Positions 20,853-37,125 of a stretch of 40,373 bases of DNA are shown here, one piece after another. Source of the stretch: Candidatus Omnitrophota bacterium (GTDB lineage: Bacteria > Omnitrophota > Gorgyraeia > Gygaellales > Profunditerraquicolaceae). The stretch lies in the NCBI GenBank assembly GCA_028712505.1, contig JAQTQC010000013.1, positions 1-40,373 on the forward strand, written 5' to 3'. The notes beneath the pieces were generated by a model. That model saw only the letters and a program-made list of their open reading frames with translations. It searched no databases and was not told where the DNA came from. Each line of letters opens with the position of its first letter. Positions within the stretch are counted from its first letter, which is position 1. A program made the position numbers and the translations under genes.

Positions 20853-20925
20853 AGCCGATGAGTGGAATCGAACCACCGACCTTGACTTTACGAAAGTCCT
20901 GCTCTACCAACTGAGCTACATCGGC
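20853..20925 (-). tRNA. tRNA-Thr (CGT)
   Basis: A 73-base cloverleaf: acceptor GCCGATG/CATCGGC, D-arm GCTC AGTTGGTA GAGC, anticodon loop TTCGTAA giving anticodon CGT, T-loop TTCGATT. U73 is the discriminator and CCA is not encoded. It is very close to E. coli tRNA-Thr(CGU), including the 27-43 non-pair. A strong promoter is at 20938-20965. Confidence 0.95.
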
Positions 20926-20992: not shown

Positions 20993-21020
20993 TTGACAAA
21001 TAGGTAATTCATGATATATT
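20993..21020 (+). promoter_or_regulatory. predicted promoter of the first csp gene
   Basis: Perfect TTGACA (20993-20998), 16-base spacer, TATATT (21015-21020). The predicted start near 21027 gives a leader of about 125 bases before the csp ATG. The promoter diverges from that of tRNA-Thr. Confidence 0.75.
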
Positions 21021-21079
21021 TAATGCATAAGTTCAAGTTTAGAGGAGAAGTTAAGAAATTGTTTAGCAACAAGTACAAA

Positions 21080-21127
21080 CCGCAAAGCAGCAACAAATAA
21101 CAAACCATGCTTTGCGGATTTTTTTTA
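21080..21127 (+). terminator. intrinsic terminator inside the csp leader
   Basis: CCGCAAAGCA (21080-21089) pairs perfectly with TGCTTTGCGG (21108-21117) over an 18-base loop and is followed by a run of eight Ts. It sits between the promoter and the csp ribosome-binding site, so transcripts would stop after about 100 bases unless the hairpin is prevented. The leader also has a GAGGAG site with a possible 13-codon TTG-initiated frame that ends in the hairpin loop. Confidence 0.75.
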
Positions 21128-21152
21128 TCTGTAGAGGAGGTGAGAATTAGAA

Positions 21153-21353
21153 ATGGCAAAAGGTAAAGTAAAGTGGTTTTCCAACCAAAAAGGCTACGGC
21201 TTTGTTACTTCCGAAGATGGCAAAGATGTATTCGTACATTTCAGCGCTATCACAGGAGAAGGTTATAAATCCTTAGCAGAGGGCGATGAAGTTGAATTTG
21301 AGGTTACGCAAGGCCCTAAAGGCGACCAAGCAACTAACGTAAAAAAGATATAA
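21153..21353 (+). CDS. cold-shock protein (CspA family)
   Basis: A 66-residue single cold-shock domain, an OB-fold that binds single-stranded RNA and DNA. RNP1 KGYGFV (13-18) and RNP2 VFVHF (26-30) are complete. The ribosome-binding site is GAGGAGGTGA. Relatives melt RNA hairpins and act as antiterminators, which is relevant because a terminator stands in its own leader. A bidirectional terminator follows at 21376-21415. A close paralogue is encoded at 36770-36970. Confidence 0.96.
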
Positions 21354-36769: not shown

Positions 36770-36970
36770 TTATAACTTCACTACTTTAGTAGCTTGTTCA
36801 CCTTTAGGACCTTTTTCGATGTCAAACTCGACCTCCTGGCCCTCCTCTAAAGTCTTATAGCCATCACCCTGGATAGCGGTATGATGCACAAATACATCAA
36901 CACCATTCTCAGGAGTAATAAATCCATAGCCTTTTTGATTCGAAAACCATTTTACTTTTCCTTTTGCCAT
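36770..36970 (-). CDS. cold-shock protein (CspA family), second copy
   Basis: A 66-residue cold-shock domain, highly similar to the product of 21153-21353 (the first 19 residues differ only at position 18). RNP1 KGYGFI and RNP2 VFVHH are present; the last histidine replaces the usual F. Strong AAAGGAGG ribosome-binding site. Its leader also contains an intrinsic terminator, and a 31-codon frame overlaps its start. Confidence 0.96.
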
Positions 36971-37047
36971 TTTCTTTGCTTCCTCCTTTCCAAAAAAATT
37001 CTAGCAGCTTTAAGAAGCAGAAATAAAAAAACCGTAAGGCGTGTCAT
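36952..37047 (-). CDS. possible 31-codon upstream frame overlapping csp
   Basis: ATG at 37047 lies in the terminator loop, with AAGGAG from the 5' arm of the terminator stem as ribosome-binding site. The frame encodes a hydrophobic then basic peptide ([20 protein letters not shown]...) and ends inside the csp start region at 36952. Initiation here would open the terminator hairpin and lead ribosomes to the csp start. Coding potential is unproven. Confidence 0.35.
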
Positions 37048-37061
37048 TCTTCTCCTTACGG
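37021..37061 (-). terminator. intrinsic terminator inside the second csp leader
   Basis: CCGTAAGG (37054-37061) pairs with CCTTACGG (37032-37039) across 14 bases, followed by seven Ts. It is about 30 bases after the predicted transcription start and 50 before the csp ATG. Confidence 0.75.
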
Positions 37062-37097
37062 CTAAAGATTCCTACCCCTCCACCTGCTATTAAAGTT

Positions 37098-37125
37098 ATT
37101 ATACCCTAAATCTCCCTCCTGTCAA
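37098..37125 (-). promoter_or_regulatory. predicted promoter of the second csp gene
   Basis: Perfect TTGACA (37120-37125), 16-base spacer, perfect TATAAT (37098-37103). Same spacing as the first csp promoter. Confidence 0.85.

Follow-up and report, generated by a model that had tools for sequence, protein, structure and literature searches.

Conserved intrinsic terminators in the leaders of Omnitrophota csp genes and a candidate ribosome-controlled attenuator

Leader terminators at csp gene 1 and in related genomes

The window, that is the whole stretch of 40,373 nucleotides that was analysed, comes from an Omnitrophota genome of 1.4 Mb. On its + strand, csp gene 1 (21153..21353, with its ATG at 21153) encodes a cold-shock domain protein of 66 amino acids (PF00313, E 3.4e-29), preceded by the ribosome-binding site GAGGAGG (21134..21140, +). 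The gene stands alone on the + strand: a tRNA gene (20853-20925, - strand) and an MFS gene (- strand) are divergent from it, and a gene for a TPR protein is convergent. The initial annotation had placed a promoter at 20993..21020 on the + strand, and this assignment held, the site being of the sigma-70 type (TTGACA-16-TATATT, extended -10 TG) with 11 of 12 consensus matches; transcription is expected to start near 21027. Between promoter and gene lies a hairpin (21080..21117, +) with a perfect 10-bp stem, formed by CCGCAAAGCA (21080-21089) and TGCTTTGCGG (21108-21117), and a loop of 18 nt (21090-21107). After one A, it is followed by the eight T of an intrinsic-terminator tract (21119..21126, +). 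The ten-pair stem and eight T described earlier ahead of the csp ribosome-binding site are thus present at 21080-21126, and an RNA running from about 21027 to the T tract would have a length of some 100 nt, in agreement with the roughly 100 bases previously proposed for the terminated transcript. Folding gave the hairpin -15.8 kcal/mol (z -4.7), a stability equalled by none of 200 shuffles. Our standard terminator scan considered loops of 3-8 nt only and for that reason passed over it. We also considered whether the hairpin at 21080 might be the terminator of an upstream gene. This was rejected, since no + strand gene to which it could belong lies just upstream of csp gene 1, and since the promoter is located 5′ of the hairpin.

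The same order of promoter, terminator and gene was found at the other csp genes of this genome. On the - strand of the window, csp gene 2 (36770..36970, 66 amino acids, identified by profile search) has a promoter TTGACA-16-TATAAT at 37098..37125 and a terminator hairpin CCGTAAGG/CCTTACGG at 37032..37061, followed by T7 (37031-37025). A third csp gene, on contig C27, repeats this order, so that leader terminators are present on all three csp genes of the genome, as well as on its DEAD-box RNA helicase operon. We sorted the leaders by pattern into two types. Type A, to which csp gene 1 belongs (covariance model R2), has the hairpin CCGYAAAGC/GCTTTRCGG with an A-rich loop and a GGAG 25-40 nt upstream, and occurs mainly in Profunditerraquicolaceae, the family of the source genome. 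Type B (covariance model R1) is represented in the genome by csp gene 2, at 36.8 kb, and by the csp gene of contig C27; its hairpin consensus is CCGYAAGG/CCTTRCGG.

The initial annotation had suggested comparing csp leaders in related genomes. We therefore assembled a set of 174 distinct csp leaders, drawn from genus and family, and the comparison bore the arrangement out. A terminator no more than 250 nt away from the start codon was present in 169/174 leaders but in only 5/348 dinucleotide shuffles, and among non-csp genes on the same loci 62/239 had one, which was often that of the preceding gene. A promoter scoring at least 9 was found within 110 nt 5′ of the hairpin in 147/168 leaders, as compared to 30/168 after shuffling, and the distance from the -10 box to the stem was 33-54 nt. 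The type A stem showed compensatory change, with 13 double changes versus 4.8 after shuffling and pairing in 99.1% of cells. All these counts come from mutually related leaders and are not independent; the genus-level and held-out tests given below lessen this kinship and do not remove it. Judged by these sequences, the leader terminators before csp genes are not there by chance, and control of csp by premature termination is strongly supported. Leaders with a CCG..CGG hairpin and a T run were also seen ahead of csp genes in Gemmatimonadetes (L222, L252, L253, L255, L257, L261) and Nitrospirae (L216, L217). Leader terminators before csp may therefore be spread more widely than the Omnitrophota.

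Weaker matches of the covariance models away from csp led to the DEAD-box RNA helicase operon. In the source genome its leader (L292) consists of a promoter, AAAGATTAG, the hairpin GCCGCMAAGG..AACTAACCTTTGCGGC and T6-T7. Most genomes of the genus have a helicase leader with a terminator, which was recovered automatically in 17/21 and by eye in four more. The exact pattern of this leader matched once in each of 13/26 genomes, with 0 matches in a reversed control, and by their coordinates nearly all these matches lie just 5′ of the helicase, one (in G092) being near a contig end. We inspected 15 further R2 matches, mostly from other genera and families. Most of them were located 5′ of csp genes, and one (L340) lies 5′ of the helicase operon in another family of the class. 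At a further R2 match (L331, G027 C7), a divergent csp-like gene and a DEAD-box helicase gene stand together behind one leader terminator. The shared leader elements were thus mainly restricted to csp and DEAD-box helicase genes. As a separate observation, two genomes of the genus carry a type-B-like leader 5′ of a nitronate-monooxygenase-like gene (L272, L277), which in L272 is followed by a gene for a small CxxC protein.

A conserved small Cys/His-rich ORF lies between the leader terminator and the helicase (L292:1350-1501 on G000 C33, with orthologs in L289-L312). Its product has the motif KKVKTSLKGRKCKxxHCK...YCHxHL and gave no match in Pfam. An ATT or ATC is the apparent start codon in 21/21 genus orthologs that were read, with a Shine-Dalgarno sequence just upstream. 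No ATG, GTG or TTG is present at the start position, although in some orthologs a GTG or ATG occurs in frame a few codons 5′ of it. In the relative of this ORF found in L340, the apparent start is ATG.

Taken from the sequences, the leader terminator that nearly all csp genes of the family possess, and that the helicase operon has as well, is a conserved regulatory feature. Genes for Csp proteins and DEAD-box helicases are a classic cold-shock pair, and as these are the genes that share the leader, the set looks like a cold-shock regulon. That the genes are induced by cold in this organism is an extrapolation from other bacteria. Conceivably, the terminated RNA of about 100 nt could instead be a small RNA in its own right, csp being expressed by leakage. 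A discrete transcript is indeed predicted, and its 3′ part is a hairpin with a U tract, as in many small RNAs. However, the leader outside the hairpin varies between genera while its architecture relative to csp is kept, and no comparably scoring copy was found apart from the csp and helicase leaders, which makes a small RNA product very improbable.

The short ORF of type A leaders

The leader of csp gene 1 contains a Shine-Dalgarno sequence, GAGGAG (21042..21047, +), of which AGGAG is conserved in type A leaders. Eleven nucleotides after it, a TTG at 21059 opens an ORF of 13 codons (LFSNKYKPQSSNK; 21059..21100, +) whose TAA stop codon (21098-21100) is located in the terminator loop. Within the genus, this ORF has a nearly invariant start region and variable codons. 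The same architecture was found in other genera, where the ORF mostly starts with TTG, ATT or GTG and ends in the 5′ arm or the loop, and where the encoded peptides are unrelated to one another (IFPGTGKRP, IRKLTNRKARSSN, LHFNTVKPEKV and others). When 82 leaders with a GGAG, including some of type B, were considered together, the ORF ended in the loop in 34, in the 5′ arm in 14 and before the hairpin in 0, whereas 8.4, 7.2 and 12.9 were obtained with a shuffled spacer. Hence, 48/82 ORFs ended inside the hairpin, against 15.6 expected. With one leader per genus, the ORF ended in the hairpin in 11 cases versus 4.4 expected for ATG, GTG and TTG starts, and in 18 versus 6.4 with ATT, which was counted as a start codon only after the data had been seen. 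Since the idea of a leader ORF had been drawn from these same data, it was tested on a held-out set of ten leaders that were obtained separately, partly from related genera. Here, 7/10 ORFs ended in the hairpin versus 1.5 expected (P about 1e-5), or 4/10 versus 0.9 when ATT was left out (P 0.006), with two leaders that had been picked on the wrong strand (L187, L329) scored as failures. In two leaders with a hairpin of another sequence (L072, L090), the ORF still ends within the hairpin, and in three type A leaders (L028, L095, L120) it reads past it. The hairpin of L072 and L090, which are of type A, is unrelated and nested in AAAATCAGA..TCTGATTTT with two tandem T tracts, the upstream leader and ORF being kept.

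Selection on the leader peptide was not evident, the codon signal being weak: synonymous changes amounted to 8/33 in frame versus 3/26 and 6/23 in the other frames. Conserved sensing codons of the trp or his type were likewise absent from the leader ORFs, whose peptides differ between genera. As the codons are not conserved, ribosome loading rather than an amino acid would be what is sensed. A competing antiterminator helix, in which upstream sequence would pair with the 3′ arm, was searched for in both types and gave no significant signal (mean z -0.5 in type A and -0.1 in type B).

Beyond the terminator, type A leaders conserve a Shine-Dalgarno sequence together with a short ORF that ends in the hairpin, which points first to the ribosome. 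Promoter, terminator and gene follow one another on one predicted transcript with a structure conserved in relatives, as in attenuators with an intrinsic terminator, and a Shine-Dalgarno sequence with a short ORF overlaps the terminator, as in ribosome-mediated attenuation. Our preferred explanation, to which we assign a probability of about one half, is that the csp gene 1 leader is a transcription attenuator in which the polymerase is let through when a ribosome occupies the leader ORF and obstructs the hairpin. RNA polymerase would start at about 21027 and by default stop at the hairpin and T8, so that a transcript about 100 nt in length is released. A ribosome would load at the leader GAGGAG, start at the weak UUG and proceed to the stop codon in the loop; by covering the 5′ arm it would keep the hairpin from forming, so that csp is transcribed. 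The leader would sense the loading and progress of the ribosome irrespective of codon identity, and Csp output would track the state of translation initiation. In keeping with this, the leader start region is similar to that of csp, and overproduced CspD increased expression of tnaCAB, where a leader terminator comes after an ORF, as well as that of several operons preceded by small ORFs (PMC9765468). We infer three of these steps from sequence: termination itself, translation of the leader ORF, and prevention of termination by the ribosome. In E. coli in the cold, initiation factors rise about threefold relative to ribosomes (PMC6511846). For this reason the weak start codons of the leader ORF could respond to the state of the initiation factors in the cold, and a response in either direction is possible.

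The hairpin could alternatively be an RNA thermometer that senses temperature alone, as thermosensors are known in the csp leaders of E. coli and Listeria (PMC6386945, PMC8079631). However, its computed stability was greater at 10 °C (-22.0 kcal/mol) than at 37 °C (-14.7 kcal/mol). A hairpin that is stronger in the cold would raise termination by cold alone and is not itself a cold-on thermosensor. Moreover, no conserved alternative structure was seen in type A leaders, and we give the thermometer very little credence. It is also conceivable that the leader ORF serves reinitiation by delivering ribosomes to csp, the hairpin being mainly an element of mRNA stability. The similarity of the leader start region to that of csp would fit this too, and leader genes can increase downstream translation (PMC4833913). 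In contrast, a stem with T6-T8 directly after it marks an intrinsic terminator, and 169/174 leaders keep this feature; reinitiation with a stability hairpin therefore appears extremely unlikely.

Type B leaders and the role of Csp proteins

In type B leaders a long-range helix surrounds the hairpin; it is formed by TAGTAAAT, close to the 5′ end, and ATTTACTA, directly 5′ of the ribosome-binding site. For csp gene 2, these strands are TAGCAG (37084..37089, -) and CTGCTA (37002..37007, -). Both sides had changed in 6/8 pairs of this helix, 90.7% of cells were paired, and the covariation score of the whole structure was reached by no shuffle and matched by no slide. The 3′ strand of the helix is present only in read-through RNA. 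Immediately 5′ of the hairpin, type B leaders carry the GUCUU-like consensus TAGAAGTCTT, which is close to the site of B. subtilis CspB, and a leader ORF, when sought in these leaders, was not consistent. The earlier view that the second csp gene shows the same arrangement with a different sequence was therefore right as to the order of promoter, terminator and gene, and has to be amended for the long-range helix, the GUCUU-like site and the absence of a leader ORF: the logic of type A is shared and the parts differ. That type B leaders manage without an ORF argues against attenuation by a leader ORF.

Two further pairings were noted. In some type B leaders, including that of the C27 gene, the 3′ strand of the helix was seen by eye to be complementary also to the start-codon region GGTAGTAAATAATGGC, and a second, translational switch is therefore possible in these leaders. 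In L001:1680-1860 and other type B leaders, likewise by eye, this alternative pairing of the 3′ strand with the csp start region (GCCRTTATTTACTA versus TAGTAAATAATGGC) could hide the start codon. Furthermore, in type B, L001 and DEAD-box leaders, AAGGATTAG, which lies 5′ of the hairpin, is able to base-pair with CTAACCTT at the hairpin's 3′ arm. When own pairs were compared with permuted ones, 29/5000 permutations were as good, relatedness being not fully removed in this comparison, and the pairing is a candidate antiterminator or pseudoknot.

The GUCUU-like site bears on a different explanation, namely that a Csp protein binds the leader during its synthesis and, by melting or blocking the hairpin, raises its own transcription, in an autogenous or cold-dependent manner, or, with the opposite sign, favours termination and limits itself. 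The consensus of B. subtilis CspB is GTCTTT(G/C), and its complex with GUCUUUA has been solved (PMC7825780). The leader T tract and the A-rich loop are single-stranded, and E. coli CspD binds nascent RNA and increases readthrough of intrinsic terminators (PMC9765468), which makes this a serious rival. However, no conserved GUCUU site was found in the type A leaders, to which csp gene 1 belongs; in B. subtilis the effect of CspB and CspD at several sites was to promote termination, which is the opposite sign (PMC8307031); and antitermination by Csp leaves the Shine-Dalgarno sequence and the ORF unexplained. Altogether we consider control by Csp rather unlikely. A terminator that reduces csp transcription to a fixed extent and responds to no signal would be expected from a strong promoter and a leaky terminator. 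Such fixed damping does not account for the conservation of the Shine-Dalgarno sequence and ORF in type A, for the covarying long-range helix in type B, or for the near-restriction of the shared elements to csp and DEAD-box helicase genes, and is distinctly improbable.

With the attenuator as the preferred reading of type A, we tentatively propose that the Omnitrophota may run a cold-shock regulon by attenuation with no dedicated regulator. Leader terminators would hold off the csp genes and the helicase operon, release at type A leaders would be read out by initiation at weak UUG or AUU codons, and the state of ribosomes and initiation factors would be the sensor. This wider scheme we regard as possible rather than probable.

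Comparison with known systems

A search of Rfam for a known RNA family of the leader returned only one sub-threshold match, to RF01766. Membership was rejected, as this match covers the csp coding part only, with 27.1 bits versus a threshold of 78. The cspA thermosensors of E. coli (RF01766) and Listeria resemble the present leaders in being regulatory 5′ leaders of a cold-shock gene. They act on translation via refolding and without an intrinsic terminator, unlike the leaders described here. In E. coli, cspB and cspG are subject to Rho-dependent premature termination in the 5′ UTR or ORF (PMC7815308). Termination control of csp is therefore already known in another form, which depends on Rho, whereas here it would depend on an intrinsic hairpin and T tract. 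The Csp antiterminators (the E. coli CspA family; CspD, PMC9765468) belong to the same protein family and act at terminators, and Csp action on its own leader is only hypothetical here. Searching the open literature for attenuators in csp leaders, or for control of csp through a leader peptide, we found thermosensors, Rho termination and Csp antitermination, and not this architecture. Even without the mechanism, the csp and helicase leaders share a conserved terminator for which neither an Rfam family nor, in the literature searched, a report was found.

The ribosome has long been proposed as a cold-shock sensor; to our knowledge, a direct wire from the state of the ribosome to csp transcription is lacking. 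If true, a csp attenuator with a ribosome-loaded ORF would provide such a link, which a short reporter could put to a direct test, and would show how the cold-shock response may be managed in an uncultured phylum. In the growth-rate attenuator of E. coli ampC and the pyrBI attenuator, a ribosome at or translating the leader physically blocks the terminator hairpin, and the peptide sequence is not sensed. This is the occlusion by a ribosome proposed here for type A leaders, and ampC and pyrBI are closer to them than attenuators of the trp type. They control genes for beta-lactamase or pyrimidine synthesis, whereas here csp would be controlled, through ORFs that mostly start with UUG, AUU or GUG and end inside the hairpin.
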